Of a stretch of 37,694 nucleotides of DNA, positions 4,020 through 37,694 are shown piece by piece. The DNA lies in IMG/VR virus record IMGVR_UViG_3300025087_000204, positions 1-37,694 of that record; one strand, written 5' to 3'. The notes beneath the pieces were generated by a model. It had not been told where the DNA came from, made no database searches, and saw only the letters and a program-made list of their open reading frames with translations. The translations under genes and the position numbers were made by a program. How positions within the stretch are numbered: the stretch's first letter is position 1; every line of letters begins with the position of its first letter. The DNA is from a virus.

Positions 4020-4210
4020 TCGTGGTCAATCTCCGGTGGCGACGTTCGACCGAGAAAGTGGCGAAAACCTCCGATTGGCTCCGACCCGAATAGCTCGCCA
4101 AAAGTCGCAAAATCCGTCCCTAAAGGCGCGCCCGTGATGTTGTCGCCGCCCCAATACAAAAGCGATTTTGTCGGCCTGTCTAAAGCGAAATTGTTTGAAG
4201 ATGGAGTCAT
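4016..4210 (-). CDS. Small protein between adaptor and tail gene, 64 aa
   Basis: The start ATG overlaps the stop of the adaptor gene (ATGA), and its own stop overlaps the start of the tail gene, so it is translationally coupled at both ends. It is rich in Gly, Phe and Pro, with no transmembrane segment or Cys motif. Position suggests a small head-tail or tail completion protein, but the sequence gives no functional clue. The short opposite-strand ORF here has no SD or neighbours and looks like a shadow. Confidence 0.65.
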   Translation of the reverse strand: MTPSSNNFALDRPTKSLLYWGGDNITGAPLGTDFATFGELFGSEPIGGFRHFLGRTSPPEIDHD

Positions 4211-7251: not shown

Positions 7252-8064
7252 TTACTTGCCTACCCTGGACTCCACATCGCTTTTCTTTACCAAAGCGTCC
7301 AGCTTAGCCATGAATTGAGGATCTTTCATAAGTTCAGGCACAGTCGCGATCTGGGCGTATAACGCCCCGATTTCCGTTTCCGTTGTCGCGCGGCCTGCCC
7401 CGGCTGTTTGAGCCGTGGCGGTTGAAGCCATCTGCGCTTTTGAAGGCGCAAAGGCGTTTTTACCTTGCCCGTACCGTGATTGATACTCTTTCAAGGCTAA
7501 CTGGGCGGCGTGTTTGGGATTTACTTGAGCGTAAGCTTCCAGAGAGTTGCCGTCATCATCCTCCTCCAGAAGTATCTCTTTCATCCTTTCCTCGCCGTTG
7601 GGGTCTTTTCGGATAAGTTCGTTTGTCCTAATCAGTCTCAATCCTTCTTGCCGCAAGTTTTCCTTCTGTCTCAGGGATTCTTTTTCTTCAATGGCTTTAA
7701 GAATATCGTCTCGGACTTCCGATTTGCCGCCGTCAAGAATTTTCTTGATTGCGTTAATCGGGTCCTGGACAAGTTCTTCCCTTGTGACTTGGGGAACACT
7801 TGGTTTCGGCGCGGCTTGAGGCGGTTCCGATGATCTTGGGTTAAAAGATTGTTTAAAAGACCTGAATTCCTTCACCAAATTTTTAATTTGGCGGGCGGTC
7901 TCATAATCGGGCGTTCCCGGCTGGGCCTGGCTTGTAGATTGGCCTCCCTCGACCTGGGACGGCGTAGAAGTTTGCGGCTGATCAATTGTCTCAGTCGCCT
8001 GCGGAGCCGATGTCGTTTCGGCCTGACCCTCCTCTACCTGGGTCTGTTGGATTGGAGCTTCCAT
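7252..8064 (-). CDS. Scaffolding protein, 270 aa
   Basis: The ATG at 8064 is preceded by a good SD (AAGGAG), so the 18 extra upstream codons of the open frame are not used. The N-terminal 75 residues are Gln/Thr/Pro/Glu-rich and disordered. The middle is a charged helical region (DDILKAIEEKESLRQKENLR), and the C-terminus is helical and basic (FMAKLDALVKKSDVESRVGK). This composition and the place directly before the major capsid gene are characteristic of phage scaffolds, which guide procapsid assembly and then leave. Confidence 0.75.
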   Translation of the reverse strand: MEAPIQQTQVEEGQAETTSAPQATETIDQPQTSTPSQVEGGQSTSQAQPGTPDYETARQIKNLVKEFRSFKQSFNPRSSEPPQAAPKPSVPQVTREELVQDPINAIKKILDGGKSEVRDDILKAIEEKESLRQKENLRQEGLRLIRTNELIRKDPNGEERMKEILLEEDDDGNSLEAYAQVNPKHAAQLALKEYQSRYGQGKNAFAPSKAQMASTATAQTAGAGRATTETEIGALYAQIATVPELMKDPQFMAKLDALVKKSDVESRVGK

Positions 8065-8129
8065 ATTTATTCTCCTTCCCGTATCACGGTCTGTCTGGTT
8101 TCGCCCGGTCAAGGGCAAATCGTTTGAAC

Positions 8130-8228: not shown

Positions 8229-8263
8229 TAAGTTTTAACTAAAATTTATGCTATACTATAAAT
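8229..8263 (+). promoter_or_regulatory. Extended -10 promoter for the HNH gene
   Basis: TATACT at 8252-8257, with upstream TGC, gives an extended -10 (TGCTATACT). The -35 (about 8229-8234) is poor. The expected start is at about 8263-8264, exactly the first base of the leader stem. The same TGCTATACT occurs in the minus-strand promoter at 25966-25994. Confidence 0.6.
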
Positions 8264-8362: not shown

Positions 8363-8935
8363 ATGACGTTTAAGCAAATCGTAAACAATATACGCAAAAG
8401 AAATGGCCTCACTAGAATTTATAGCGGCATTTGCAATTTCTGCGGGAAAGATTTTTTTCACACGCATAAACGCACATCTTGCTGTTCGCAAGAATGTGGT
8501 CAAAAAAGAGGAGCATTTATTAAATGCGTGAATTGCAAAAAACAGAAATGGAAAGCTCCTAAAGTTATACTTCGCGCCAAAAATCATTACTGCTCTGATT
8601 ATTGTAAAAGAATTTATGAAATTGGAGAAAATAGCCCAAGTTTTAAGGGTGGATATATTTCCCATCATGGATATAGGGTTTTCAATGTTCCAAAGAGTAG
8701 CGGAAAAAACAGAACGATAGCATTTGAACATAGACTGATAATGGAAAAAATTCTTGGGCGAACCCTTAAAAATTATGAGCGAGTCCACCATCGCAATGGA
8801 ATTCGTTCCGACAATCGTCCAGAGAACTTGGAATTGTGGACTGTTAGAAAAGACCCATGCGGTCAAAGAGTTTCCGATATTCTTAAATTTGTTAAAGATA
8901 ATTATCATAATGAATATATGTCATTGTGTAAGTGA
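8363..8935 (+). CDS. HNH homing endonuclease, 190 aa
   Basis: The N-terminal half has zinc-binding Cys pairs (CNFCGKDF, CCSQEC, CVNCKKQ, CSDYC). The C-terminal half has the HNH signature: EHRLIMEKILGR, then ERVHHRNGIRSDNRPENLELW with HH...N...N. This is the free-standing HNH homing endonuclease type common in phage genomes. It is the only plus-strand gene inside the late operon. It is visibly more AT-rich than its neighbours and has its own promoter and leader. Its last 15 bases overlap the 3' end of the convergent glycosyltransferase gene. It was probably acquired by homing; the neighbouring late genes look intact. Confidence 0.85.
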   Translation: MTFKQIVNNIRKRNGLTRIYSGICNFCGKDFFHTHKRTSCCSQECGQKRGAFIKCVNCKKQKWKAPKVILRAKNHYCSDYCKRIYEIGENSPSFKGGYISHHGYRVFNVPKSSGKNRTIAFEHRLIMEKILGRTLKNYERVHHRNGIRSDNRPENLELWTVRKDPCGQRVSDILKFVKDNYHNEYMSLCK

Positions 8936-9802
8936 CGGCCTAATTCTAGTACCATCATGTTTTGATATAATTAAACTTCCAGGCGCATCTTCGTACTTTA
9001 TAAATTTAATATCATCAAATTTCGGCCTAGGCGGACGCAATAAATCTTCAAGTTTGTAGCCATAATGCCCCCAATGAGTGACCGACAACGTGCTTGGGTC
9101 AAGCCATATCTTGTACCCGGACTTGCGACATTTTTCCGCAAAACTCCAGTCTTCACTCATATAGATAAAATCATCTTCATTGGGAACCTTATAAACCTCT
9201 GGCTGAAAAAATGGCCAAAAGCGAAGGTCTTTTTTATGACAAAGCGGCAATTTACATGTATCAATTACATCAAGAAATACATTCCTATGGCACGCATACA
9301 TGCCACTTCCAATCCACTTTACTTCCCGCAATTCTGAATCTGGACCAAAAATAATCGGTTCCGACCCTTCGATGGGCTTGGAGGCTATCCAATTCCCTTC
9401 TTCTCTTTTAATGACGCACGTGGCGGCCACGATACCTTTCAATTCGTTGGCCTTTTGGCAAATCTTTATCGCATCCTCAACGCTGAAAGATATGTCGTCG
9501 TCCGCGCAAAACAGAACGTCGGCGTCCGAGTAATTAAGGAAGTCGCTGGCTTCCCTGCTCCTGGCCCGGTCAATCAAAGCGTCACCCATGGCGTTGCTTA
9601 CCGTTACATGAGGCTTCTGCACGCACATCAACTTTATGAGCGAGTCCAGGACGTGGTTTTGTATGGAGCGGAATATGCACAACGACACGTGGATTTTGAA
9701 GTCCAACGGGTCAACTTTCGGCAAAATGAGTTTATACCCGTTCGAGCCGTTCCGTTTAGGCGATCTATTAAAAAAGTCTTGAAGCTGGTTTTTTATGTTC
9801 AT
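8921..9802 (-). CDS. GT-A glycosyltransferase-like protein, 293 aa
   Basis: Residues about 85-105 read NYSDADVLFCADDDISF, the DxD-type nucleotide-sugar and metal site of GT-A glycosyltransferases. Later EDWSFAEKCRKSGYKIWLD...VTHWG resembles the acceptor and catalytic end of family-2-like enzymes. It would act in the cytoplasm on a sugar nucleotide. It lies between exported and head genes, so a virion protein or a surface glycan is the likely acceptor; DNA modification is possible but less suggested by context. Its C-terminal third is AT-rich and borders the HNH gene. The start overlaps the stop of the upstream exported gene. Confidence 0.65.
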   Translation of the reverse strand: MNIKNQLQDFFNRSPKRNGSNGYKLILPKVDPLDFKIHVSLCIFRSIQNHVLDSLIKLMCVQKPHVTVSNAMGDALIDRARSREASDFLNYSDADVLFCADDDISFSVEDAIKICQKANELKGIVAATCVIKREEGNWIASKPIEGSEPIIFGPDSELREVKWIGSGMYACHRNVFLDVIDTCKLPLCHKKDLRFWPFFQPEVYKVPNEDDFIYMSEDWSFAEKCRKSGYKIWLDPSTLSVTHWGHYGYKLEDLLRPPRPKFDDIKFIKYEDAPGSLIISKHDGTRIRPSLTQ

Positions 9803-10248
9803 CAGTCTTTAGGGAAATACCTGTTCGACGTTTGAATCGGAGGCATGAAGTAGTAGTCCCACAAATACATGATCGGGCAAGCCCCGCCTACTTTACTGAA
9901 GTAGGAATAATCATTGAACCCGTAAGACGTGCTGGTGACCACGTTCCACTCCTTCCCCAACATATTGTGGGAAACGTCCAATGGAATAAAGGCTTTCGTG
10001 GAGACGATATTCGCCATGAACGGAAAAGCGGAGGAACGGTGGAAAGCGAACTGGCTTGTCCCGCCCACGTTAACTGTTCCTGAACCAGTAACCATATGGA
10101 AAATGATAGGAGTCGAAGAAATGAGGACGTTGGTATAGTCTCCGCATTGGATTTCAGAGCTTTTCCATGTCCTGAACTGAGCCCGCATTTCTTCGCCGTA
10201 ACCGTTCCCGGCCCATAAAAATAAAAACAGAAACAACGCTTTTTTCAT
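9802..10248 (-). CDS. Exported protein, 148 aa
   Basis: SD TAGGAGACTGAC precedes the ATG at 10248. The signal peptide is MKKALFLFLFLWAGNGYG|EE (Sec type, small residue at -1). The mature chain is beta-rich with two Cys (near residues 35 and 125) that could form a disulfide after export, and Ser/Thr/Gly stretches (TGSGTVNVGGTS) like those of the other exported proteins here. It lies two genes after the portal, among head genes. Family not recognised. Confidence 0.7.
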   Translation of the reverse strand: MKKALFLFLFLWAGNGYGEEMRAQFRTWKSSEIQCGDYTNVLISSTPIIFHMVTGSGTVNVGGTSQFAFHRSSAFPFMANIVSTKAFIPLDVSHNMLGKEWNVVTSTSYGFNDYSYFSKVGGACPIMYLWDYYFMPPIQTSNRYFPKD

Positions 10249-10626: not shown

Positions 10627-12618
10627 CTATCCTGACATGGAAACAGGCATAGGATTCGGACTTGAACTCACCGGGCCAACCGGAGTAGTAATCATGTTCC
10701 CGTTGCCTCCGGCCCCGCCTCCGCCTGCTTCCTCGCCCCTCTTTTCGCCCTGATTCTCCTGGTTCATCTGGCCGCCGGGATTGATCCTCTGCTGTTGACG
10801 CATCTGGTACAACATCTGGTCTGCGACCGGGACGGGCGCGCTCAATTGTCTCACGTCCTCACCCATCGCCCTCAAAAGTTTCACCGTCAACACCTTTTCC
10901 ATGTTCATAGCCGTCACCGGGTCAAATATGTTTCTGATGCTCGTGAATATCTGCATGGCCTGGATGACGTTTTGGATGACTTCGGGTCTTGAGTCCCGGT
11001 CGGTCGTCAACTTGATAAAAACTCCGACGTTTAAAGGCAAATTGTCCTTGTTGACGTAAAACGGCTTTGGAGAACCCATCGCTTTCACCCAAAACCCGTT
11101 GTCCATCAAATAGGTGTTGTTGGTGTGGCAGGTTTGCAAAAATTCCCGCAAGAAAGAGTCGGCGATGATCTTTGCCATGACGTTTCCTACCCTGGCGGAC
11201 TCGTTTTGGGCTATGACTTGCCCGGTGGCCGAGCTTTTGTTGGTGATTCCCTGCATGGAGTCCACGGCGTGGTTCGATGCCCTAAAGTCTTGTTTCCAAA
11301 TCTCCTGCATATTAAGGGAATAAGGCAGGGCTTCGATGTTGGCTTTGATCGGCTCTAATTGGTCTATGTTTTCCAACTCCACGAAATTCCAGGGTTTAAT
11401 CGTCAGTTTGGAAACGTCCACCCCGGCGTATTTGCCGATCTTCCACATCGGAAGCACGTTGAACATCGTCAAATCGTTCGTCCTGGATTCCAAGGCGTCC
11501 AGCTCTTTCTGCCGTTTCCGCCCGATCTTGCCAACCCCGTACCCTAACGGCTCAAGCTCAAGCAGTTTGGAATGAGCGATCTTGAACAGGTGATGCCAGG
11601 TCTTGAAAGGCGTGGCGTGGAAATTAACAACTCCGGCCTCATTCAAAACGCCTGCGGAAAAGTCACAGTTTCCTGGATCGTCCTGCCTCCCTTCCGATTC
11701 CCAGTATTGGGAAATGAAGCTCTCGACTTCCGGGTCGGACATATCAATCCGTCCATGGTACTTTATGAATTCCCAATTGTTGTTGTCTATGACCTGGTAT
11801 CCGGCCCGCTGTTTTCGGGTCAACACCCTGCTGTACGTAGAAGTCTTTGACGCGCCCGCTGAATTTTCGCTCCCGTGCTCTAAAACGATTTTTTCAATCT
11901 CGCCCAAGTTCCAGTCTTTCTTGCTGTTTCTGGCCCAATTCCTCAACATCCACACCGTGGGGAAATCTATGGTAAAAATAAACTCGCTTTGGTCCAAATC
12001 GAATACAAACGGGTTGAACCCGGTCGTCAACAACGGCCTCAGTATCAAGTCCGTCCCCTCAAACGTCTTTTCACCGTCTCCATAAGGAAAACTTGTCCAA
12101 GGACATTCCATTATCATCGTCCCGAACAGGCTCAAAGACCTTAATCCCCGCATCAGCTTCTCCGTGAACCGGATATATTGCAATTGCTTCCTTATAGTGG
12201 CCTCAACCGCCTGCAACTCAACCTCGCTTACCTCTCTGCCGTACTGATCCATCCCCTCACCCTGGAAATAATAAAACGGGTCAGCGGATGTCAGCTGGTT
12301 AAACCAAAAAGTGGCCTGGGTCTCAACCGCCCGGTGCGTCTCGCCGCTTTTTGAATTGAATAAAGCCTTCGGCCTCCCTCCTGACCGTTTCGCAACTATC
12401 CGCCATGAATCCACGTACTCGTCATACTCTCCGAAAAACGTCGTCATCCTGCTTTCCCAATGGCTGGACTTGTCTATCACCTCGCCCTTGAGCTTGTCCA
12501 AAGCGTGCTTATGCGCCGGATCAGCCAAATCAAACACCCTGGGCAACATCAACCCAGGCATACCCGGTATAATCGGCATGGAAGGGATCATCGGCATCTG
12601 CGGATCAACGTTTTCCAA
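10627..12618 (-). CDS. Portal protein, 663 aa
   Basis: The size and content fit the large portals of short-tailed phages: a Pro/Met-rich N-terminal tail, then helix-rich DKLKGEVIDKSSHWESRM, a wing region (RSLSLFGTMIMECPW), the clip/stem region with IGRKRQKELDALESRTNDL and SMQGITNKSSATGQ, and a Gly/Gln-rich C-terminus. It forms the dodecameric ring at the packaging vertex and follows large terminase and a 47-aa gene. The annotated start is TTG at 12618, overlapping the upstream gene by 14 bases. A downstream in-frame ATG (about residue 8) is a possible alternative because neither has a strong SD. Confidence 0.75.
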   Translation of the reverse strand: MENVDPQMPMIPSMPIIPGMPGLMLPRVFDLADPAHKHALDKLKGEVIDKSSHWESRMTTFFGEYDEYVDSWRIVAKRSGGRPKALFNSKSGETHRAVETQATFWFNQLTSADPFYYFQGEGMDQYGREVSEVELQAVEATIRKQLQYIRFTEKLMRGLRSLSLFGTMIMECPWTSFPYGDGEKTFEGTDLILRPLLTTGFNPFVFDLDQSEFIFTIDFPTVWMLRNWARNSKKDWNLGEIEKIVLEHGSENSAGASKTSTYSRVLTRKQRAGYQVIDNNNWEFIKYHGRIDMSDPEVESFISQYWESEGRQDDPGNCDFSAGVLNEAGVVNFHATPFKTWHHLFKIAHSKLLELEPLGYGVGKIGRKRQKELDALESRTNDLTMFNVLPMWKIGKYAGVDVSKLTIKPWNFVELENIDQLEPIKANIEALPYSLNMQEIWKQDFRASNHAVDSMQGITNKSSATGQVIAQNESARVGNVMAKIIADSFLREFLQTCHTNNTYLMDNGFWVKAMGSPKPFYVNKDNLPLNVGVFIKLTTDRDSRPEVIQNVIQAMQIFTSIRNIFDPVTAMNMEKVLTVKLLRAMGEDVRQLSAPVPVADQMLYQMRQQQRINPGGQMNQENQGEKRGEEAGGGGAGGNGNMITTPVGPVSSSPNPMPVSMSG

Positions 12619-12748
12619 GGTCTTCGGCCAATCCTTTTCGCTTTTTTTCAGGCAGTTTTTTGTCCGGAGTCTCTTTAGACCACAGTTTCGCCATTTCAGG
12701 CTTGTTTTTGAACATCCATCGTCTCTGGGACTCGGATTTAAAAGGCAT
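12605..12748 (-). CDS. Small conserved phage head-module protein, 47 aa
   Basis: The N-terminus MPFKSESQRRWMFKNKPEMA matches a very common small phage protein (S-x-x-QRRWMF-x-x-PEMA-x-x-W-x-x-x-T) found near terminase and portal genes. It is highly basic with a Lys-rich C-terminus. The start overlaps the terminase stop (TGATG). Its role is not established; a DNA-binding or assembly helper is plausible. Confidence 0.75.
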   Translation of the reverse strand: MPFKSESQRRWMFKNKPEMAKLWSKETPDKKLPEKKRKGLAEDLGKR

Positions 12749-14082
12749 CAATCCTCCCCGAACGCCCACGCCATTTCCCGGCTCGACGCCGTTTTCTGTC
12801 CCGTCAAATCGTTGAAATTGAACGTGTTCGGCGCGGGCGCGGACAACTTCCTTTCAGCTGGAAACAAATTGCCGTGAAACATCGTGTCGTGCACTCTAAC
12901 CAAGCCGTATTTTAAACTGTCCAAAACATCATCCCCTTCATCTTCTCCGTAAACATAGTTTTTGGCCTCGGCAATAAAGTTCTTGCACTTCGGATGCACC
13001 AAAATCTTGTCCTTCTTGAAAAACATCTTCATGATGTCTATGCCCCTATCCCGGTTGTCCCCTGGGATACACGGAACCCCGTTCCGCTGAAACTCCCACA
13101 TGTCCGTCAACCCGGTCTGAGAGTTCCTTTTTGCCGTGGACGGGTCAATCACAGTCCACGCTATCGGCCTCCCACCAGTCATCTGCTTTATTAAGGAAGC
13201 AGACTCGAATATCCGCTTGTCGGTCTGGTAATACTCATCCGCTAAATAAACAAACTCATTCTCCATGTCAATGGCAAGCCAAACACAAGTCGTCGGATGC
13301 GCGATCCCCCAGTCGATCCCCCTCACCCATATCGCCGCCTTCGGAACCTCGAACTCTTTGACGTGCCGCCCATAATCAAACTCGCTTAATAGCAATCCCC
13401 CATAATCCGACTCCTCGGCCATGTACTCCAGCCGCCACTTGTCGTCCGTACACCCGGCCTTGATCGCCTCCACTTCGTCCTTCTCCAGCATCGGGTTGCC
13501 ATATATTGTGTCGTGCCAATACGCCCAGCTCCCGTCTCCCGCCCTCTCCTGCATCTGCGCGTACTCGCATAACTTGGTAAACCAGTTCTTCCCGTCCTTG
13601 TGCGGCGAACTGATAAAGTAAAACGGCCCCTTGGACTTCGCCAACTGCCCCCTCAATATGTTCGGCCATGCGTACCCCTTCGTCTGATCGTACGCCGCCT
13701 CGTCCATTATCCCCCCATCCAAACTCACTCCCCGCAAACTCGTCTCGTTGTCCGTCCCCTTCAGCTTGATCTTCGAGTACCCCCTGGAAAATAAATTCAA
13801 GTTAATCTCCAAATCCGTGTTCAGCGGATTCCCCAATATCACCTCCGAAGGTATCGCCGTCTTGAGAAAATCCCACATGATCTCCCGCGCCTGCCCTATC
13901 GTCGGCGCAATGTACCAATACACCCCGGGATTCCTGAAAGCCATCTGGATGATCTCAAACCCGGCCCAATACGACTTCCCCCACCGCTTGCCGATCTTCA
14001 ATACCTTGAACCTGGCCGGGCTCTCATGCACCCTCTGTTGGTTCGCATGCAACTGGATCGGCAACTTGATGTCTAACTGCAT
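12748..14082 (-). CDS. terL: Terminase large subunit
   Basis: I place the start at the ATG at 14082, giving 444 aa. The ORF extends 49 codons further, but that part covers the hairpins at 14095-14208 and does not look like terminase. Near the N-terminus, LKIGKRWGKSYWA is the Walker A-like motor site and VSLDGGIMDEAAY the Walker B with the catalytic Glu; FISSPHKDG follows as the coupling motif. The C-terminal nuclease half shows RGIDWGIAHPTTCVWLAID, VIDPSTAKR and DDVLDSLKY, whose acidic residues fit the RNase H-fold nuclease. It packages and cuts DNA with the small subunit. No strong SD is seen at 14082, so the start is less certain than the identity. Confidence 0.85.
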   Translation of the reverse strand: MQLDIKLPIQLHANQQRVHESPARFKVLKIGKRWGKSYWAGFEIIQMAFRNPGVYWYIAPTIGQAREIMWDFLKTAIPSEVILGNPLNTDLEINLNLFSRGYSKIKLKGTDNETSLRGVSLDGGIMDEAAYDQTKGYAWPNILRGQLAKSKGPFYFISSPHKDGKNWFTKLCEYAQMQERAGDGSWAYWHDTIYGNPMLEKDEVEAIKAGCTDDKWRLEYMAEESDYGGLLLSEFDYGRHVKEFEVPKAAIWVRGIDWGIAHPTTCVWLAIDMENEFVYLADEYYQTDKRIFESASLIKQMTGGRPIAWTVIDPSTAKRNSQTGLTDMWEFQRNGVPCIPGDNRDRGIDIMKMFFKKDKILVHPKCKNFIAEAKNYVYGEDEGDDVLDSLKYGLVRVHDTMFHGNLFPAERKLSAPAPNTFNFNDLTGQKTASSREMAWAFGED

Positions 14083-14083
14083 A

Positions 14084-14220
14084 AAATTCTTTGGGGCTTC
14101 GGAGCCACTCTTAATCAGATATAGGCCGCTTAGCCCGCCCGCCCCAAAAGGAAACGCCGTGCGAAGGTCATTCCCAGAATTCTTTAGGGAACACTCAATC
14201 GCACGGCGGCTTTTAACTGA
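14084..14220 (-). ncRNA. Structured intergenic element before large terminase
   Basis: CGCCGTGCGA (14155-14164) pairs with TCGCACGGCG (14199-14208), a perfect 10-bp stem. Inside it TTCCC (14171-14175) pairs with GGGAA (14187-14191), and GGCT (14095-14098) with AGCC (14103-14106) forms a third small hairpin. The segment is GC-rich and lies between the 97-aa gene and terL. On the minus strand the main stem is followed by TTTCCTTTT, so a weak terminator or attenuator is an alternative to a functional RNA. Confidence 0.45.
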
Positions 14221-14235
14221 CTGCTTCAAATTAAA

Positions 14236-21008: not shown

Positions 21009-21022
21009 CCCCACCACCTCCA

Positions 21023-29339: not shown

Positions 29340-29798
29340 TCAGAATGACAACCCGGCCTTGATGCCGGCGAGCAATTCTTGCTCCGTAAACCCATGAGCG
29401 ATGAACGGGCCCACCCATAATCTGTCCCAATTTCTGTCAAGCGCCGGAAGCGTATTCCTAACCGCGCTCACGTTACCTTTAAAGAAGTCCTCAAGAAGTC
29501 TATTGACCCTCAACGTGCCGCCAACCATCAGGCTTCCGCGTGATTTTGTATCATAGCCGGAAACGTACCCGAAATCAGCCGTGATATAAGGAGTCGCATA
29601 AACGATAGGGAACTGCGCTCCAACCGCGTTACGGCCTCCGATCATGTCCCGGAAGTAACCGGGCTCAACTGAAGATGCGATAGCCCAATCGAATAATTGG
29701 CCCTCGGTCTCCTTGAATACTTCTTTCCAATCATCCGCATGTGCAATCCCCAGCCCCATCCATCCGGCAATCATTAACGAACTGATTAATTTCTTCAT
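29340..29798 (-). CDS. Exported protein, end of late operon, 152 aa
   Basis: SD CAGGAGG precedes the ATG at 29798. Sec signal peptide: MKKLISSLMIAGWMGLGIAHA|DD, a clean AxA site. The mature part has aromatic, beta-type segments (QFPIVYATPYITADFGYVSG, then GSLMVGGTLRVNRLLEDF) and ends FTEQELLAGIKAGLSF; the YxxADFGY and GGTLRVN pieces resemble outer-membrane beta-strand patterns. It may be a periplasmic or outer-membrane lysis or exclusion protein, or a virion protein. Last gene of the late operon. Confidence 0.7.
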   Translation of the reverse strand: MKKLISSLMIAGWMGLGIAHADDWKEVFKETEGQLFDWAIASSVEPGYFRDMIGGRNAVGAQFPIVYATPYITADFGYVSGYDTKSRGSLMVGGTLRVNRLLEDFFKGNVSAVRNTLPALDRNWDRLWVGPFIAHGFTEQELLAGIKAGLSF

Positions 29799-29880
29799 TT
29801 TAAGCCTCCTGTTTATTTATGTAAACTATGCTTTACTTAAATGTTTTATAGATGACTTTCTCGACGGTAACTATATGTAA

Positions 29881-30207
29881 CTACTTTGAGACAGCTTTAT
29901 CCGTCACAAGTCTCAGAAGCATATTAACCACGCCTAGAACCGTCGCCAACGTGCCCGCCTGTTGAGCGTCCATTTTAGCTTCCGGTGACATCAGGAATGT
30001 CAATGCTCCCGCAACCACAGTAAGAAAGTTCACCCATATAGTTTTTGAAGCCCACCACTTTTTGCCATCATTTTCAGCCATGATTTTACGTACCTCCCTC
30101 TTTGCGATCTTGAAACGGATGTTCTCCTTGCCACTTAGAACGGACTCCATCACGCCTCTTGAGAACCATTCCACTATCTTCACTTTGATCTTGTTTTTCA
30201 GGTTCAT
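29881..30207 (-). CDS. Holin-like membrane protein, 108 aa
   Basis: The N-terminal 50 residues are basic and helical. KKWWASKTIWVNFLTVVAGA then opens a membrane segment (to about residue 72), and a second amphipathic segment (AGTLATVLGVVNMLLRLVTD) follows. The WWxSKTIWVN...NMLLRLVT pattern is widespread in phage lysis cassettes. It lies beside the M15 endolysin, so a holin or related lysis role is probable. Confidence 0.6.
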   Translation of the reverse strand: MNLKNKIKVKIVEWFSRGVMESVLSGKENIRFKIAKREVRKIMAENDGKKWWASKTIWVNFLTVVAGALTFLMSPEAKMDAQQAGTLATVLGVVNMLLRLVTDKAVSK

Positions 30208-30295
30208 TGTGTCCTGTCAATCCGAAGCGATATTTAACTTTAAGCCATAAAGTTCGATCTTTGAACCAGTTGTGAAAGAAAGATTCAGAACCCAC
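30086..30295 (-). CDS. Possible small protein overlapping the holin-like gene, 69 aa
   Basis: The GTG at 30295 follows the upstream TAA directly, with GAGG four bases before it. The first 30 residues (ESFFHNWFKDRTLWLKVKYR) fill an otherwise empty 88-base gap, but the last 40 residues lie out of frame within the holin-like gene. Embedded small lysis genes are known in phages; a chance frame is equally possible. Confidence 0.35.
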   Translation of the reverse strand: MGSESFFHNWFKDRTLWLKVKYRFGLTGHNEPEKQDQSEDSGMVLKRRDGVRSKWQGEHPFQDRKEGGT

Positions 30296-30412
30296 TTACC
30301 TCACCGATACGGCCAGAGGGATGAGGTTGATGGCGATGGCGATGAGCCAGATAATGAAACCATCCTCCTCATCCAAAGATTTACCGGGATTCCCGGTGTT
30401 TTTAGCTTTCAT
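30296..30412 (-). CDS. Small membrane protein, 38 aa
   Basis: ATG at 30412 overlaps the endolysin stop (ATGA). Acidic N-terminal half, then one membrane helix (GFIIWLIAIAINLIPLAV) and a short basic end. Its place right after the endolysin suggests a role in lysis (holin, pinholin or antiholin). Confidence 0.6.
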   Translation of the reverse strand: MKAKNTGNPGKSLDEEDGFIIWLIAIAINLIPLAVSVR

Positions 30413-30960
30413 CCGATCTGTTTGCATCCTATATGGATGGCGTTATTTATGCGCTCTTGCAAGTAGTCCGTTATAAAGCAGGTTCCTTCTTGGTAGGCCT
30501 TCATCACCCTCTTGGCTTTCTCCATCAGATTCTTGCCGCCGCCTATGTCGAACGCAAGTCCTCGCTGGTGAGGGCTTATTTGGATGGTCTGCCCTTTCTT
30601 GTTTTCCGGGCTCCCTGGCCGGAAGTAGTCGTACAAGCATTTTGCCGGGATAGGGGGGTTAACAATATCGCCGATGTTGAGGAGCCGAGACCATCCGCGT
30701 TGCCAGAAATAGACCACTTCGTCATCCACTTCCAGCCCAAATCCGGGATCGCTGTCGCGATGCAAGTCAAATTCTGGAAAATCATTGTAAATACCATGCC
30801 TTTTCATTTTCTCTGAGATAATCCTGACTTGATCTTCCGGCGTTCTAAGACCGGAAGTAATCTCCGATTGCTCACCTTCAAAATAAGGGTCAAGCAGTTC
30901 TACTGTCCGCATGATAGCGGGGGTGTTTTTGACTTTTTCTTCAAATAAAAGCCACTTCAT
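30409..30960 (-). CDS. M15-type peptidoglycan peptidase (endolysin), 183 aa
   Basis: ITSGLRTPEDQVRII near residue 40 and SPHQRGLAFDIGGG near residue 130 give the SGxR and SxHxxGxAxD zinc motif of D-Ala-D-Ala/M15 peptidases; AIHIGC near the C-terminus supplies the last His. A Zn(II) held by His, Asp and His would cut stem-peptide bonds. There is no signal peptide, so it needs a holin from the adjacent membrane genes. SD AGGGG precedes the ATG, which overlaps the upstream TAA. Confidence 0.8.
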   Translation of the reverse strand: MKWLLFEEKVKNTPAIMRTVELLDPYFEGEQSEITSGLRTPEDQVRIISEKMKRHGIYNDFPEFDLHRDSDPGFGLEVDDEVVYFWQRGWSRLLNIGDIVNPPIPAKCLYDYFRPGSPENKKGQTIQISPHQRGLAFDIGGGKNLMEKAKRVMKAYQEGTCFITDYLQERINNAIHIGCKQIG

Positions 30961-31229
30961 TAATTCCCCTGTTTCGTCAAAATAGCGTATATCTGATCGG
31001 TGCGAATAACGTTCGACGCCATGCTGTTTTCTATCCTTCTCAAAGTCTCCCTCAACGATTCAACATCTCCTCCATGCCTGGCTACGGAAATTTCCAATTT
31101 GTCCACCTTGTCAAACAGGATATTCACGGCCTTCCTCGCGGTTTCGACCCTTCGGTACATATCGCCCAGCACAAAGACCGTCGCCATGATCCAGGTGATA
31201 ACGCCCCAGTATTCCGTGAATCCAGCCAC
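30960..31229 (-). CDS. Membrane-anchored coiled-coil protein, 89 aa
   Basis: GTG start at 31229. An N-terminal membrane segment (YWGVITWIMATVFVLGDMY) is followed by a continuous helix with heptads (ILFDKVDKLEISVARHGGDV, then SLRETLRRIENSM). This is the topology of an inner-membrane spanin or a holin accessory. It is coupled to the endolysin by a TAATG overlap. Confidence 0.6.
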   Translation of the reverse strand: MAGFTEYWGVITWIMATVFVLGDMYRRVETARKAVNILFDKVDKLEISVARHGGDVESLRETLRRIENSMASNVIRTDQIYAILTKQGN

Positions 31230-31244
31230 ATCACTTGCCCACTA

Positions 31245-31343
31245 TCATTGGCTGTGGATCACTCGAATAGTCCTGCGGGGCTGCGCTTCTCCGCTCCCGC
31301 CAGCCGCCAAAGACCGCCAGATTGAATAGTCCGCCGGGTTCAT
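31245..31343 (-). CDS. Small basic protein, 32 aa
   Basis: ATG at 31343 overlaps the coiled-coil gene stop (ATGA). Gly/Ala/Arg-rich (MNPADYSIWRSLAAGGSG). It would otherwise be the only gap in this gene run. Real but tiny, or a chance frame. Confidence 0.4.
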   Translation of the reverse strand: MNPADYSIWRSLAAGGSGEAQPRRTIRVIHSQ

Positions 31344-31780
31344 CGGACAGCGACTTCACCGATTGCCCTTAATTTCTCATCGAGCCTGGATTGAAGCTCT
31401 TGCGCGTCTTGAGTTGCCTTTTCGTAGCTGGAAATTAACTGCTTCAATTCGTTTTCCCTGACTTCCATCCTAGAGGCTTCATTTTGGATTTTGATTCTCT
31501 CTTGGTCTACAATAGACCGCAAGGAATCCAACTCCCTTGTTTTGTCACGGATTGAATTTATTTCAGCGGCTCTTTCGGACTCAATATCCGTTTTCAGTTG
31601 AGCCTTCTGTTTGTTCAAGTCGTCCACTTCGGCAATGAGAGATTTTTTAGTCTGCTCCCAGTTGACGATCTGGGCAGGCAAATCTCCGAATTTAGCCATG
31701 ATTTCTTTAGCCTCTTTCAAGAAATCGGCAATTTTCAAAAGCCCGTCAATTTCCTCTTTTGCTTTTCTCAATGATTCCAT
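31340..31780 (-). CDS. Long coiled-coil protein, 146 aa
   Basis: SD AAAGGAGAC precedes the ATG at 31780. Residues about 45-140 are an almost uninterrupted charged helix (KKSLIAEVDDLNKQKAQLKT, later KATQDAQELQSRLDEKL). No signal peptide. It lies between an exported protein and the lysis genes; it might be a fibre chaperone or virion protein. Confidence 0.7.
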   Translation of the reverse strand: MESLRKAKEEIDGLLKIADFLKEAKEIMAKFGDLPAQIVNWEQTKKSLIAEVDDLNKQKAQLKTDIESERAAEINSIRDKTRELDSLRSIVDQERIKIQNEASRMEVRENELKQLISSYEKATQDAQELQSRLDEKLRAIGEVAVR

Positions 31781-31791
31781 GTTTGTCTCCT

Positions 31792-32154
31792 TTATGAGCT
31801 TCTTTTAACTGACCAATCTGTGTCTACGGGATAAATCTTGCTGTTGTCTAGGATGATTCTCGGAGGACCGCTATTATCGAACCGCCAAACCTGATAAATA
31901 TCTCCCGCTACAAGTACCTCTGATTTTTCCGTTACGTCCTTTGGTGTTGTTATCACTAGAACATAATTCGTGTCCGGCTGAGTTAGAGTATGCGTTCCGT
32001 AAAAAGGCTGTTCTGAACCCTGCCGTCCTTTAGTCTTAAATGTAGCTTCAATCGCTTGTTTCGTTTTAACTCCAACGGGAACACGAATATAGTAGGTGTC
32101 CTGAGCGCACAGAACTCCACAGGCTCCAAAAAAGACTGCTAGTTTAATAAGAAT
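31792..32154 (-). CDS. Exported protein with probable AUU start, 120 aa
   Basis: A 120-codon frame ends at TAA 31794-31792. It has no ATG, GTG or TTG near its beginning; ATT at 32154 has GGAG eight bases upstream and gives an ideal signal peptide (LIKLAVFFGACGVLCA|QD). The mature part is beta-like (YYIRVPVGVKTKQAIEATF, then GDIYQVWRFDNSG). It overlaps the upstream gene by 11 bases. The next gene follows with a good SD. Either a rare AUU start or a small sequence error explains this. Confidence 0.55.
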   Translation of the reverse strand: MLIKLAVFFGACGVLCAQDTYYIRVPVGVKTKQAIEATFKTKGRQGSEQPFYGTHTLTQPDTNYVLVITTPKDVTEKSEVLVAGDIYQVWRFDNSGPPRIILDNSKIYPVDTDWSVKRSS

Positions 32155-32983
32155 ATTGTTCGCTCCATGCCTGGAAAAATGCCAAAGCTTTTCCCCTATC
32201 CACTATATTGTTCCAAACCCAAAAAGGGCCTACTATACCGCCCATTTCCCCAGAGGCTCCAACCTTTGATTTTCCAATCGCAAACTCAGATCCTCCGGCA
32301 CAGGTGTTTATATTAGGAGCCCCGGTAACCCTATTCACTAATTTACCATCGTAGTAGTAATCAATATGTCCAGAGCTGTCTCGCCATATTCCAAACATAT
32401 GAGGTCTAGTGTCTCTACCATACTCAAAATTGAAGAACCCGGCAGAGCCTGAACCTGGAAAAATAAGGTTTAAGGTTTGGTTTGCCCCTCCGGTAACTTC
32501 AAGAGAAATTCCACAAGAGTTTGCCCCTTGCGACCAGTTGAAAATGGAAACTTGCGCAGCGGCAAACCCTATGGAGTAATCAGATATTATAAAAGCAATC
32601 ATAAATGGCTTGTTCCCGCTAAAATCAAACATAGTTGTCGTAGTAATTGTTAAATCAACTCCAGTAGTTGGAGTTAGGTAGGCGGCATGTCCGAAAAGAG
32701 GTGTATAGGCAAGCGAGCTAGGCCTTACAACGTAAGGAGTTTGTACCCAACCTGCAAAGATTTGGCTTTCTTCTATCCAAGCAACTGGCCCGTTTAGCTT
32801 AAAATCCAGACCCGAATTGCTTTGATCTCTAGCCGTTCCGCCGCGACCGTCCTTCATATCAACTGCAAGGATGCAGTTAGGGTCTTTAGGGTCTGTTGGG
32901 TTAATTGCATGAACCACATGGCATCCCCCCATAAAGATAAATAATAATAAGAGCCTAGTAGCGGCTCTTGAACCACATATCAA
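32144..32983 (-). CDS. Exported LamG/lectin-like protein, 279 aa
   Basis: The TTG start at 32983 overlaps the fibre gene by 29 bases. The signal peptide has Arg in the n-region (SRAATR), hydrophobic LLLLFIFMGG and either VHA|IN or, less likely, a lipobox-like MGGC. The mature chain is a beta-sandwich type: ILAVDMKDGRGGTARDQSNS, then AFIISDYSIGFAAA and HMFGIWRDSSGHIDYYYDG, the pattern of LamG/concanavalin-like domains that bind glycans. With the fibre next to it, receptor binding is a likely job. Confidence 0.65.
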   Translation of the reverse strand: MICGSRAATRLLLLFIFMGGCHVVHAINPTDPKDPNCILAVDMKDGRGGTARDQSNSGLDFKLNGPVAWIEESQIFAGWVQTPYVVRPSSLAYTPLFGHAAYLTPTTGVDLTITTTTMFDFSGNKPFMIAFIISDYSIGFAAAQVSIFNWSQGANSCGISLEVTGGANQTLNLIFPGSGSAGFFNFEYGRDTRPHMFGIWRDSSGHIDYYYDGKLVNRVTGAPNINTCAGGSEFAIGKSKVGASGEMGGIVGPFWVWNNIVDRGKALAFFQAWSEQYSY

Positions 32984-33971
32984 AATGGAATTTTACCCCC
33001 CTTGGGAGAGAGCCTGTGCTTGGAACCGTGGTAATCCAAAGGCTGAATGTCTCTCCGGCGTTGAAGGGTATGGATGTCGAAACAAACCCTGAAAATCCGT
33101 CTCCACGACCATTTGAAGTGGCTGTATCAAGTGAAATTGTGGTGTTATTAAAACGGTCCTGTATTGGGACTCCTTGAACCCCTATCCCGCTAGTGGCTCC
33201 TGTGGTGGTGACTATCTTAAACCCTGTAAATGTGTTCGTTGAAGCTAAAGCAGCGTCCATCCAGTACCCAACCATTGTCCCCGAATCTATCCCCATCGAA
33301 TAACAGGCTTTCGGAACAGCACACGGCCCTATTGTGGCTACAAAGACAGAAGCAATATCAAAGGTAAACGTCATCGTAGCTCCCTGAACTGTAGCTGCCC
33401 CGCCTGCCCCGCCGCCGCCAGCATTGTCTCCACCCCAAAAAACTCTTGATCCTGACCTTTGGAGGATGTTATTGCCGATCTCCGGGGCCGTGGATTGCCA
33501 AATATAGTCGTTGCCGCCAACACTAAAAGACTGTCCGGTTACGCTCAAGGTTGAAGTAAATGTCCCGCTGGAAAAAGACTGAGCCGCTGTCCACGTCCAG
33601 GCCGCCTGATAAATGCTGTTCAGCCCCTGCAACGTGTCGGTGGCGGCCACCACGCCGGAGCCGCCGCCACATCCAGTACAGGAAGATACGTCAATCCAGG
33701 TGAAGTATTGTCCTGCCGTCCAGGTTCCGGTTGTGTTCCTGATATTCGCCTGATTCGCCGTAGTCGTAGAAATCGCGGTTATCTGGTTCTGGACTCTGGT
33801 CAACGTCGAGTCAATGATCTCGAAATTGGCGTTAAACTTGTCTCCCCAATTACGGTTAGGGTCAACCTGGGTCAAGGAAGGCTGTAACAGCTTCATGTTG
33901 CCCGTGGTCTGGGTATCAGCCAGGAGATACCCTGCGGCTAAAACAACGATTCCGAATATAAGTTTTTTCAT
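32955..33971 (-). CDS. Tail fibre-like protein with signal peptide, 338 aa
   Basis: The start overlaps the 676-aa gene stop (ATGA). Signal peptide MKKLIFGIVVLAAGYLLA|DT. The mature N-terminus (LLQPSLTQVDPNRNWGDKFN, then NFEIIDSTL) matches the common N-terminal segment of phage tail fibres. Next come a short coiled coil, a Trp/Thr/Gly-rich shaft (TGTWTAGQYFTW, TWTAAQSFSSGTFTS) and Gly-rich and beta-rich C-terminal parts. Fibres are normally assembled in the cytoplasm, so a signal peptide here is striking. Confidence 0.7.
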   Translation of the reverse strand: MKKLIFGIVVLAAGYLLADTQTTGNMKLLQPSLTQVDPNRNWGDKFNANFEIIDSTLTRVQNQITAISTTTANQANIRNTTGTWTAGQYFTWIDVSSCTGCGGGSGVVAATDTLQGLNSIYQAAWTWTAAQSFSSGTFTSTLSVTGQSFSVGGNDYIWQSTAPEIGNNILQRSGSRVFWGGDNAGGGGAGGAATVQGATMTFTFDIASVFVATIGPCAVPKACYSMGIDSGTMVGYWMDAALASTNTFTGFKIVTTTGATSGIGVQGVPIQDRFNNTTISLDTATSNGRGDGFSGFVSTSIPFNAGETFSLWITTVPSTGSLPRGVKFHFDMWFKSRY

Positions 33972-35998
33972 TTTTTCCTTTGCCTTTTTTCAGTTAGCCC
34001 TGAAGCCAATCCAGGAGTTCTTTGGATAGGATGCGATAAAAGTGTAGGTTTATTTACCAAGGACTCCAAATAATCTACATTGACGCCGCCACCCTTTTCG
34101 GCCATGCTTAAAACACCTTTTGTAGACCCTGGCATATCAACAATATTCCCAAGGAGCATGAGTTTCCATCTTATGTTCCACGGCAACGGCATAAATTTGT
34201 GTCCTTCCGTTACTTCCCCGGCGTATTGAGCTATTTCCCCAAGAGTTTTTATTTCTTGTGACTTTGCTCCATAAAGAGCATCTAAAAAACCGCTGTCCGA
34301 AAGTTTTTTTACGTCCGCCCCAAGTCCCGCGATATCCACATCTACACCGGATGGGCTTTTTACGGTATTCTCACGGACTAACTTTTGGATGATTCCTTTC
34401 TGCAAAAACTTAAAGCTGTCCTGGCTCAAATTGCGTTTAGCGGCTGATATGACTTCCGGCGTATTGTTCCTAACGGCGGAATCAACGATTTTAGACGGAT
34501 GATTTTGAATGATGTTATGCAGATCGTAGTCCGCTTTAGGTATGACTTCTTCCAATTTTCGAGTGGGAACATCCGGCAACGCTTTTGCTTTTTTCATAAG
34601 ATCGCCGCTGACTTTTTTACCTGTTTCAAAGGCTTTTACTTCCGATTCATGTTTAGCCAAAACGTAGGCAATATCCCTGGATCCCAAAGATTCGGAGACT
34701 TGCTGGACTCTGCTGGGCGTCCGCATTGCGGGTATGATATCTTCTGGAAATTCTGACTTTCCTATTTTCTTAATCATGCCTTTATCAAGGAAGTCGTAGA
34801 TATTCAAAGAAGATTGCCTTGCCGCTTCAGCTTCTTTCAAGAACCCTGCGGATGCGGCGGTATCAACATAATCCTCGCCAAGGCTCCTATACAGTTTGAT
34901 TAGGTTATAGTTGAGTTCGTCGCCTCTTGGCGTGTTCCAATCAATCTTTTGGCCGATGGCTGTTTTGAGTTGTTTAATGTCGTTTGCCGTTATATTTTCT
35001 TTTTGGCCTACCCGTAAAATCTTCGCAAAAATACCGTAATCCCTGGCTGGCATGGCAGGGTTGACTTCTTCAATGGATTTAATATTTATCGGAGGAGTAT
35101 AGTCCGGGTATTGTTGGCGAATTGTTGATAGCGGAATCCCACTTTCGGTTGTTTCGCCAAGAACATTTGCTATCCCGGCTCCTTCGCCCATGCCGAAAAG
35201 GTTTTTAATGTATTCAACTGTCTTAGGTATGGCTCCCGGACTGTTTGCCAACTTACCCTCAATCTGTTTATAGGCTTCTTCCTCTTTGTTTTTTAGGCCG
35301 GACAGAACACCTTGTCTCCTGGTTTTCAATTCCGTGCCCATTTGAATTTTCTGTTCCATCGGTATTTCCGGGGCTTTTTCAGCCACTTGAGGCACTTTTA
35401 CCTCCGGTTTCCTGCCTAAAATATCCTCAAGCTCCCCTAATTGCTTGCCATAACCACCGGTATATTCTTCTTTAATCATGCCGCCGAGAGTTTCTGGCTT
35501 TACTTGTTTGCCGGACAATTTTTGAGCATATTTGCCTATACCTGATTTTACTTTCCCAAAAGTTGACAACAAAGACGGCATCGGCAAAAATCCGGCGAAC
35601 CCTGACGGTGAAAACGGAGCTAAACTTAAAGCGGTATCGGCCAGTCCGGTTGCCAACCCTCTTGCGACCGGGTAATCTTGGCCTGGAATTTTGTTTTCTG
35701 TCAATAAATTACCCAATGAAGCCGTGGAAGCTCCCTTGACCCGATTTGAAAGACCTTCAAGTATCATTGGAGCCGAATGAGGCTCAAGAACGGCTGTTTT
35801 AGCCAATCCAAGCCAATCAGAAGGACTTTTAGCTTGTTCAGCTTCGTGGTATGGAGCCATAGTCCAATCAGCTAGTTTTTGAGATACTGTTTCCTGCGCC
35901 GGAGGCTCTACCTGTTCAGTTTGTGAAACAGGCCGCGCAGTAGCAGGGTTGAATTTCCCTCTATTAACAGGCCGCGCAGTAGCAGGGTTAAACGCCAT
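33968..35998 (-). CDS. Large internal virion/ejection-type protein, 676 aa
   Basis: The N-terminus carries two copies of FNPATARPV, a motif seen repeated at the start of internal virion proteins of short-tailed phages. Then a Gly/Leu-rich hydrophobic region (GLATGLADTALSLAPFSPSG) and long helical segments through residues 150-600. No nuclease or lytic motif is visible. It is the third of three long soluble proteins in a row, directly before the fibre, the usual position of ejection proteins. The start overlaps the 415-aa stop (TAATG). Confidence 0.65.
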   Translation of the reverse strand: MAFNPATARPVNRGKFNPATARPVSQTEQVEPPAQETVSQKLADWTMAPYHEAEQAKSPSDWLGLAKTAVLEPHSAPMILEGLSNRVKGASTASLGNLLTENKIPGQDYPVARGLATGLADTALSLAPFSPSGFAGFLPMPSLLSTFGKVKSGIGKYAQKLSGKQVKPETLGGMIKEEYTGGYGKQLGELEDILGRKPEVKVPQVAEKAPEIPMEQKIQMGTELKTRRQGVLSGLKNKEEEAYKQIEGKLANSPGAIPKTVEYIKNLFGMGEGAGIANVLGETTESGIPLSTIRQQYPDYTPPINIKSIEEVNPAMPARDYGIFAKILRVGQKENITANDIKQLKTAIGQKIDWNTPRGDELNYNLIKLYRSLGEDYVDTAASAGFLKEAEAARQSSLNIYDFLDKGMIKKIGKSEFPEDIIPAMRTPSRVQQVSESLGSRDIAYVLAKHESEVKAFETGKKVSGDLMKKAKALPDVPTRKLEEVIPKADYDLHNIIQNHPSKIVDSAVRNNTPEVISAAKRNLSQDSFKFLQKGIIQKLVRENTVKSPSGVDVDIAGLGADVKKLSDSGFLDALYGAKSQEIKTLGEIAQYAGEVTEGHKFMPLPWNIRWKLMLLGNIVDMPGSTKGVLSMAEKGGGVNVDYLESLVNKPTLLSHPIQRTPGLASGLTEKRQRKK
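35927..35989. repeat. 24-bp direct repeat at the gene start
   Basis: 35927-35950 and 35966-35989 are identical 24-mers, 39 bases apart (13 codons), and give the twin FNPATARPV motif in the 676-aa protein. It is probably a duplicated binding or cargo-tag motif and could recombine. Confidence 0.9.
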
Positions 35999-37245
35999 TA
36001 AGGAACCTCGTCATAAGTTCCGTCCGGGTACATCCACGCTTTATTGCCCTCCGCGTCTATTTTCAAAACACCGCCCGGTTTTGGGCTGGAAGATGGATTC
36101 ATAGGACTTGTTTTCTCAAGCCGCCGTATTCCAGAAGATAAGGTATTTACGTTTGCCTGGAAAGCCTTATCGGTTGATGCCGGTGAACTGAACAAACTTA
36201 AATAAAATTTCCTGTCTTCATTTGATAACCTGTTTCTTTCAACCAGTTTCGCAAGCCTTTGAGCCAAAAGCCCTTTTTCTGTTTCCCAGTTTGTAATTGG
36301 CGCGGAAAACAACCTTCCAACTCCTGTCCCGCCAGGTATAAGAGTGGCATTTCGCTCGCTTTGCGACATCGTTTGCCGTATGGAATTTAAATTATTGACT
36401 CCTTCCAAAATTGATCCTATGATTTCGTTTTCAGATTCGACTTTATTTTCCACGGTATCGTCAATCGTTTTATATTTTCCAAGACCTCTCAACTGTTCAG
36501 GCGACATTTTCAAAAGTTCGCTTTTTTTGTATGTCGGCAACTCTTGATCTGGAATGATTTTAGTGCCTTTTTTAACCATACCCTCGCCAATAGCTTCTGT
36601 TCCTGTCATGGCTGGGACCAAAGCGTTCGCATTCGCGCTCGATACCGCAAGCGGAACGCCTGTTTTAGCAGGCAAAGAACCCTGGTAAATATATCCGGCT
36701 GGAGGCGGGTTCCCTCTCGGTTGAATGATCGGAGGCTTTGAAGCGTCCGTAGGATGAGTATAAACGTCGGTTCCTCCCTGCATACCGCGAATTTGCGCCG
36801 CTTTCAGGTTTTGTTCAAGGCTTAAATCACGATTGATACCTTTAGCTTGTAAATCCATTCTTTGATTTTGATTAGTCAATGCCTGCTGTCGCGCAGTATC
36901 AATTCCTTTTTGTCTCGTGTCCAGACTACCGCTAAATAAATCCTGAACAGGGATAGGAGCATTTTGAGCCTGATTCAATGTTGATTGAACAGTCGAAGTC
37001 GTGTCACTCTCGGATGGCACTCCAATCAAATCTCCTACTGGCCCTGCATCTTTATTCTTCAACTCCTGAGCCTTCATCTCAAGGGCTTGTTTAGCATAAG
37101 TCTGGAACTGTGTTCCAACGTCACCGACAATCCCCAACATCTTGGCGGCTTTATCAATGTCTCTCTCGCCTTGAGGACGATAACCTTCTTTATAGGCTGA
37201 GACTTGTTGAAGCAATTTTGCTATTTCAGAAGCCGTGTTAGGCAT
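35998..37245 (-). CDS. Internal virion/ejection-type protein, 415 aa
   Basis: SD GAGGGGGT precedes the ATG at 37245, overlapping the stop of the 470-aa gene. It is Gln/Asn/Lys-rich and helical in the first half (ARQQALTNQNQRMDLQAKGI), with a Pro/Gly-rich middle (IIQPRGNPPPAGYIYQGSL) and a second helical region (VESENEIIGSILEGVNNLNS). No enzymatic motif or signal peptide. Position between two other long virion-type proteins supports an ejection role. Confidence 0.65.
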   Translation of the reverse strand: MPNTASEIAKLLQQVSAYKEGYRPQGERDIDKAAKMLGIVGDVGTQFQTYAKQALEMKAQELKNKDAGPVGDLIGVPSESDTTSTVQSTLNQAQNAPIPVQDLFSGSLDTRQKGIDTARQQALTNQNQRMDLQAKGINRDLSLEQNLKAAQIRGMQGGTDVYTHPTDASKPPIIQPRGNPPPAGYIYQGSLPAKTGVPLAVSSANANALVPAMTGTEAIGEGMVKKGTKIIPDQELPTYKKSELLKMSPEQLRGLGKYKTIDDTVENKVESENEIIGSILEGVNNLNSIRQTMSQSERNATLIPGGTGVGRLFSAPITNWETEKGLLAQRLAKLVERNRLSNEDRKFYLSLFSSPASTDKAFQANVNTLSSGIRRLEKTSPMNPSSSPKPGGVLKIDAEGNKAWMYPDGTYDEVP

Positions 37246-37694
37246 GAGACCCCCTCAAAGACATTTCATAAAACTTGTCATAAAGATTCTGGAACACCTG
37301 TCTTAATTTCGTGTCTTTCTTTATCTGGTTCGCCCAGATTTGGCCGTATTTGGAGTAGGCTCGCGCAAATTTTCCAACCCATGTATCTTTATCCATCTGA
37401 TTCAACATGAAGGCTCTAAGCGAATGGGTCTTTTCGGAATCTTTGCCATAAAGTTCTTCAGCTACCCAACAAAAGGCCATTCCGAGGCCACCAGCAAGAC
37501 CACCAATAGCCCCAAGTCCTTGGAATCCAAGACTCGTATAATCCATCCACCCGGGCTTTGAACCTTCTGCCTGTTGCCGGCCTAGTTGAGCGGCCAGTCC
37601 CATCTGCTGTCTTTGAAGTCCTCTTTCATAGGACGAATCGTCAATTTCCTTATTAAACATCTGTCTCCGTAGGCCGAAATCAAGTCCGTACTGC
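37238..37694 (-). CDS. 3' part of the 470-aa ejection-type gene (continues from 1-1313)
   Basis: The frame is open to the right-hand contig end and is the same gene as 1-1313. This part carries the C-terminus: GLGAIGGLAGGLGMAF, then WVAEELYGKDSEKTHSLRAF and the helical end (TKLRQVFQNLYDKFYEMSLR). The stop TAA overlaps the 415-aa start. Over the shared 107 codons the two contig ends differ at seven bases, six of them silent. Confidence 0.8.
   Translation of the reverse strand, partial: QYGLDFGLRRQMFNKEIDDSSYERGLQRQQMGLAAQLGRQQAEGSKPGWMDYTSLGFQGLGAIGGLAGGLGMAFCWVAEELYGKDSEKTHSLRAFMLNQMDKDTWVGKFARAYSKYGQIWANQIKKDTKLRQVFQNLYDKFYEMSLRGSHA
37338..37694. repeat. Contig-end overlap (copy of 1-357)
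   Basis: This is the right-hand copy of the terminal overlap. Removing it gives a circle of 37,337 bp. The differences from the left copy all lie in the first 104 aligned bases. Confidence 0.85.

Follow-up and report, generated by a model that had tools for sequence, protein, structure and literature searches.

Sec-type signal peptides ahead of the tail anchor in fibres of uncultivated tailed phages

Background

What are signal peptides doing at the start of a tail fibre? The question is raised by the IMG/VR virus record IMGVR_UViG_3300025087_000204, whose 37,694 nucleotides are called the window in what follows: eight proteins of its late module, among them the tail fibre and the tail hub, begin with what looks like a signal of the Sec secretion pathway, and textbook tailed phages are assembled wholly in the cytoplasm. 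We report that a signal peptide ahead of the fibre's tail anchor recurs in about a dozen other uncultivated bacterial virus contigs: it is not the mark of one odd genome.

The window is a podovirus-like genome, and the record is circular or redundant. Its ends form a direct terminal repeat of 357 bp (1-357 versus 37338-37694) with 7 mismatches, which suggest assembly or population variation. Since the ends repeat over this length, the record is circular, and the gene blocks at 1.3-14 kb and 29-37.7 kb therefore make up a single late module.

Results

The tail fibre

The fibre gene (32955..33971, minus strand) encodes 338 residues. The predicted cut falls between MKKLIFGIVVLAAGYLLA and DTQTTG, and the mature part, with 4 cysteines, opens on the tail-anchor domain TTN..LTKP...WG..N.NF..ID. 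Signal peptides were called, here and throughout, with a transparent rule-based scorer that looks for lysine or arginine in the n-region, an uncharged h-region, small residues at positions -3 and -1, and a length of about 15-30 residues.

The anchor domain has the full pattern TTN.xLTKP...WG..N.NF..ID. A scan for a start codon, a gap and the motif WG..N.NF..ID yielded 53 IMG/VR loci, 11 of them with a signal peptide directly ahead of the anchor. Among the 11, L155, L159 and L165 share one sequence, which leaves 9 IMG/VR lineages with such a fibre besides the window, 10 in total. By BLAST, the window fibre is linked to the signal-bearing fibres of G005, G006, G008 and G009. A second type of anchor, W..G(E)..T..DLN, follows a signal peptide in 3 more loci: L123, L191 and the Manatee Spring phage MW202637; the two motif patterns written for this second type either were too narrow or matched mostly in the wrong frame.

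The predicted cut coincides with the start of fibres that have no signal: signal-bearing fibres read DTLTTNLGLTKP after a cut behind AYA, and those without a signal begin MADTTTTNLGLTKP. The distance to the WG of the motif is 17-23 residues after the predicted cut in signal-bearing fibres, and 19-23 residues, counting the methionine, in the others; the cut sites of L139 and L165 were set by inspection and lie one or a few residues off the scorer's first choice. When the signal-bearing fibres are aligned with cultured phages (tblastn), the alignment starts at residues 20-23, where the cultured fibres begin. The fibres of Sinorhizobium phage phiM5 (ARV77521), Ochrobactrum phage OH and MW202879 have the same anchor motif, N-terminal length and neighbourhood, but, unlike the window fibre, they start with MADT.. 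and carry no signal. The phiM5 fibre is annotated in its record as detected in particles.

Can the signal be skipped? The fibres of L146 and L147 have no in-frame ATG, GTG or TTG between the start of the signal and the motif, so that it cannot be. In the window fibre, an ATG lies further in, at residue 26; internal starts in the signal-bearing fibres other than those of L146 and L147 have no recognisable (purine-rich) leader. The earlier note on this DNA had proposed the signals, and had granted that the proposal would fall if homologues of fibre and hub lacked them and used an in-frame start further on. For the fibre, the ten lineages with a signal, two of them with no start to bypass it, uphold the proposal, and we consider it very probable that the fibre signals are functional. 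The fibre with the anchor motif occurs once per record in 10 of the 10 records with the motif, and no second copy without a signal was seen in them.

Eight signal peptides in one module

The window's eight N-termini with n-, h- and c-regions were borne out by the rule-based scorer: all are present as open reading frames and have the anatomy of Sec substrates of signal peptidase I. Six were detected directly, and the other two once their starts were corrected. In the gene at 5661-6224, the ATG start lies inside a longer GTG reading frame; the gene at 31792 has no ATG, GTG or TTG start, and its best candidate is an ATT at 32148 (ATT AAA, giving M-K-L-A-V-F-F..) that overlaps the TAA stop of the preceding gene. 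The fibre and three other genes have ATG starts with purine-rich leaders. The TTG starts of the hub (4019) and of the small gene next to it (1605) overlap the preceding stop as TTGA, and purine-rich sequence lies upstream of them: this is the arrangement of translationally coupled genes.

Signal peptides were found in 8 of about 28 late genes, a total that is the analysis's own gene set, versus 17 of 971 control genes (1.75%; binomial 2e-8, Fisher 1e-7). The controls come from 118 phage loci, all with a homologue of the tail hub, treated with the same scorer and with a leader required. The rest of the window has none in about 30 genes (p=0.0016). The suggestion that the bias is confined to one module also stands, since signals are absent from the terminase large subunit (12748..14229), the portal (10627..12618), the probable scaffold (7252..8118, from its position and composition), the major capsid protein (6238..7179; phrog_267, E=9.5e-13), the SU10-type adaptor (4207..4941; PF24175, E=9e-16) and three genes between hub and fibre (33968..37660; 676, 415 and 140 residues) whose position makes them probable ejection or internal proteins. 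All these genes, and the eight with signals, are on the minus strand.

Two signal-bearing genes adjoin the fibre. The first (32144..32983, TTG start) encodes 279 residues, probably a receptor-binding accessory; it has a weak match to a Laminin_G_3/ConA-like lectin domain (E=8e-4, below the Pfam cut-off). The second (31792..32148, from the probable ATT start) encodes about 118 residues, with the predicted cut between MKLAVFFGACGVLCA and QDTYY. A strand-rich protein of 152 residues (29340..29798), possibly an envelope protein, is encoded near the lysis genes and is weakly similar to a signal-bearing protein of the cousin record G009 (z=4.8). The remaining two, apart from the hub and its neighbour, are a protein of 187 residues (5661..6224) immediately after the major capsid gene, and one of 148 residues (9802..10248) between the portal and scaffold genes.

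The tail hub and its neighbour

The hub gene (1602..4019) encodes 805 residues, and its signal peptide is predicted to end between MKHAVWILFLAALANGA and DLP, ahead of the family start DYSGGLNT. The protein matches the virion families phrog_3287 and phrog_511, and a profile of 18 homologues without signals aligns with residues 23-307 (hhalign probability 98.9-99.5). Its AlphaFold model, with a mean predicted local distance difference test score of 52.8, is reliable in the propeller region only. That model matches the tail hub or nozzle structures of Pa223, VP1, SU10, Pam1, P22 gp10 and T7 (Foldseek E from 1.6e-15 to 1e-6 overall: 1.6e-15 for Pa223, 5.6e-9 for P22 gp10 and 1.6e-6 for T7). The beta-propeller-like tail protein of the earlier note is thus predicted to fold like the hub and nozzle proteins of the P22 gp10 and T7 gp12 type.

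The hubs of P22 (gp10), T7 (gp12), SU10, Pam1 and VP1 resemble that of the window in fold; the window hub has a signal peptide ahead of the family start, which the homologues examined lack. A motif scan of IMG/VR gave 118 hub homologues, and 83 of the 118, with references built, start 7-26 residues ahead of the motif DFTGGLN without a signal; the predicted mature start of the window hub is 12 residues ahead of the family motif. The hub of G009, homologous to that of the window (E=7.6e-39, 32%), has no signal either. The small gene next to the hub (1315..1605, 96 residues, TTG start, predicted cut between MRYFFIFFFASALHA and AEPIFND) has a homologue in G009 at 20983-21231 (z=11.2), again without a signal. 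Because both counterparts lack them, the signals of the hub and of this gene are additions in the lineage of the window. Between the small gene and the next late gene, at 1062-1187, lies a direct repeat of 69 bp with an offset of 57 bp.

An in-frame TTG at residue 19 of the hub, preceded by GGGG, would give MPTNANIEVIS-DYSGG, the normal N-terminus of the family, so that a second hub, without signal, is possible. The proposal of the earlier note does not hold up for the hub as it does for the fibre: the cousin and the hub homologues begin without a signal, and a TTG is at hand behind that of the window. Export of the hub by the same route as the fibre is possible, but less certain.

Relatives of the window

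The four signal-peptide genes covered by a second record, L002 (13.75 kb), are identical to those of the window, so that this record is not independent evidence. Searches for relatives with the hub, terminase and capsid returned a near-identical second record only; tblastn of the hub, portal, capsid and whole fibre had no match in 50,697 phage records, and a hub scan of genome contigs found no relative. The pattern scan for signal-bearing fibres in genome contigs produced three archaeal loci, which were rejected as frame-shifted chance matches: no host was thus found.

The cousin G009 (L164) is about 30% identical to the window in its core proteins: 29% in the portal (E=4e-79), 29% in the terminase, 32% in the hub and 27% in the capsid. 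It has signal-peptide genes at three places that correspond to those of the window, namely between portal and scaffold (27686-28048, as 9802-10248 in the window), immediately behind the capsid gene, and at the fibre. The correspondence is one of position: no recognisable sequence likeness to G009 was found for the proteins at 5661 (z=1.6) and 9802 (z=0.3). A signal-peptide gene follows the capsid gene in the window, G001, G005, G008, G009 and MW202637. At the fibre, such genes often stand in a row: G005 has four of them, G004 and G007 have two or more each, and the stretch of G007 covered here (L156) has up to four. The core proteins of the records with signal-bearing fibres differ widely, and L139 and L160 carry tape-measure-like genes, so that several origins or transfers are likely.

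Membrane proteins and other genes of the late modules

In G001, the capsid-adjacent signal-peptide gene is directly followed by a gene for a membrane protein of the Wzy_C/O-antigen-ligase family (L226:7151-8260, plus strand; Pfam E=4e-13, above the cut-off), a family that also takes in PglL-type protein O-oligosaccharyltransferases. In three phages with signal-bearing fibres, G004, G005 and G007, the late module encodes a polytopic protein; the three proteins are related and share an N-terminal DD, the motif (E/Q)RYxYL and a tail of TPR type (L214:8237-9745, minus strand; L216:120-1427, plus strand; L221:5707-7212, minus strand). From these motifs we suspect GT-C transferases; the Pfam models PMT_2 and TMTC_DUF1736 did not match the three proteins, and their PDB matches were to the TPR part. 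In 189 other loci (1.68 Mb), no comparable polytopic protein was seen, with two exceptions, one of them tape-measure-like and the other from an archaeal contig. G005 also encodes, next to its signal-bearing fibre, a signal-peptide protein of 990 residues (L216:14739-17711, plus strand) with a dense cluster of 21 cysteines, a choice-of-anchor Q domain and an F5/8C domain (E=2e-12).

In the window itself, the sole glycosyltransferase-like gene encodes a soluble protein without signal (8921..9802, minus strand; weak match to phrog_12406, and phrog_1574, a family of unknown function, E=1.4e-9). Between that gene and the scaffold gene, running against the direction of the late genes, is an HNH endonuclease gene (8363-8935, plus strand; PF13392, E=1.7e-10); the antisense reading frame at 8246-8908 is probably spurious, and a similar insertion is found in L123 (5014-5658, minus strand). 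Elsewhere in the window (24948-25748, minus strand), a protein has a series of short near-identical repeats (..AWGNSSVVARGNSSVEARENS..) that resemble those of pentapeptide type or of beta-helices.

Discussion

Virion proteins with Sec signals are familiar from filamentous phages, whose pIII and pVIII are assembled from the membrane or periplasm side. These phages use the secretion machinery of the host (PMC4823517). They are, however, extruded without lysis and have no terminase, portal or tail, whereas the window belongs to a tailed double-stranded DNA phage with a lysis module; its terminase, portal and major capsid genes set it apart from them. In lytic tailed phages, late proteins such as Lys44 of fOg44 and the signal-arrest-release (SAR) endolysins travel by the host Sec route (PMC6116005), but they are lysis enzymes, not structural proteins. 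No signal-peptide gene of the window matches a lysin above the cut-off, which places them outside the exported endolysins, and the VanY/M15-like protein at 30409-30960 (a weak match) has no signal. We found no earlier report of tail fibres with signal peptides in the open-access literature, a scope outside which most subscription journals fall. Sec signals on the fibres of tailed phages thus appear to be new, in a setting where Sec-dependent virion proteins of filamentous phages and Sec-dependent lysins of tailed phages were already known.

What the signals are for can be framed as follows. Heads, portal and tail core would be built in the cytoplasm; the Sec pathway would export the tail fibre, the accessories for receptor binding and, probably, a protein of the capsid surface; signal peptidase would trim the fibre to the N-terminus of ordinary fibres; the fibre would fold outside the cytoplasm, in some lineages probably with disulphides, and would join an otherwise finished particle once lysis breaches the inner membrane. 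We give about an even chance to this explanation, in which genuine signals sit on outer virion parts that are exported, processed and joined to the particle at or after the breach. Directly observed are the signals, their position, their recurrence, the coincidence of the cut sites, their absence from core proteins and the fact that each record has one anchor fibre; from these we infer that the signal is cleaved in vivo, that disulphides form and that the fibre joins late. Export of the fibre is well supported, and the joining of exported parts to the virion is the step that would follow. Indirect signs of cleavage and export are the coincidence of the cut with the native fibre start and the higher cysteine content of the signal-bearing fibres: 8.5 per 1000 residues versus 2.4 in the others (Mann-Whitney p=4e-4), a difference confounded with lineage, as many fibres without signals look marine. 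Within single genomes, cysteine is not generally raised in signal-peptide genes. The Wzy_C-family gene beside a signal-peptide gene in G001 and the cysteine-dense protein of G005 also count in favour of the explanation.

Besides that confounding, several points weigh against the explanation. All the signal-bearing fibres found come from metagenomes. Exported parts would be diluted after lysis, so that late joining must be fast, and the small signal-bearing proteins without an assigned role may not be virion parts. Compared across homologues, the hub signal is private to the lineage of the window, and hubs like P22 gp10 normally seal the filled head while it is still in the cell. The idea that structural proteins are exported and the particle finished outside the cytoplasm nevertheless fits best: its export part is backed by the relatives for the fibre, and not by the homologues for the hub.

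A more detailed version of this explanation is a rather doubtful one. Surface parts exported by Sec would be oxidised, in some lineages also glycosylated by phage-encoded polytopic transferases, and fitted as they cross the breached membrane: assembly would occupy two compartments. Glycosylation as a possible reason for export is a lead, not a result.

The strongest rival, in our view an unlikely one, is that export and processing do take place but serve the host envelope: there the proteins would bind or mask the receptor, exclude superinfecting phages or prevent progeny from sticking to debris, and they would be no part of the virion. The phage envelope proteins Cor and Llp act in like manner. 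The protein at 29340 resembles an envelope protein, and the phage envelope protein Lom works in this way (PMC12309495). However, the exported fibres retain a tail-anchor domain that only a virion part needs, no second anchor fibre without signal was seen in these records, and the genes are in structural order. A purely envelope role is disfavoured because the fibre keeps its anchor and is present in single copy.

Leaky or dual targeting, a shade less probable, would have the proteins exported in part, while a cytoplasmic pool, due to slow export or to an internal start of the kind known from dual-start holins and the Ms6 lysin, is assembled. Phage Ms6 makes two lysin isoforms through alternative translation (PMC6116005), and both the TTG at residue 19 of the hub and the ATG at residue 26 of the window fibre could serve. 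The fibres of L146 and L147 offer no such start, however, and the internal starts of the other signal-bearing fibres come without a recognisable leader.

It is quite improbable that the hydrophobic N-terminus stays uncleaved, as an anchor that ties fibre assembly to the inner membrane. The signals of SAR endolysins are indeed tethered to the membrane (PMC6116005), but the h-regions here are short, and the native fibre start comes immediately behind small residues at -3 and -1, a point at which an anchor would have no need to end in ten lineages. Least probable, and largely refuted for the fibres, is an artefact of start-codon choice, with the true N-termini lying beyond the hydrophobic stretch: three of the eight window starts are TTG and one is ATT, but the fibre and three others have ATG and purine-rich leaders, the TTG starts overlap the preceding stop, and the pattern holds in ten fibre lineages, two of them without any other start.

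The signal at the native fibre start, in podovirus-like as well as tape-measure-bearing phages, means either export of part of the virion or an envelope role for fibres that keep their tail anchor. For annotation, signal-bearing fibres may be filed as secreted proteins of the host. Either reading, if true, would alter views of virion assembly, fibre folding and superinfection in uncultivated phages.

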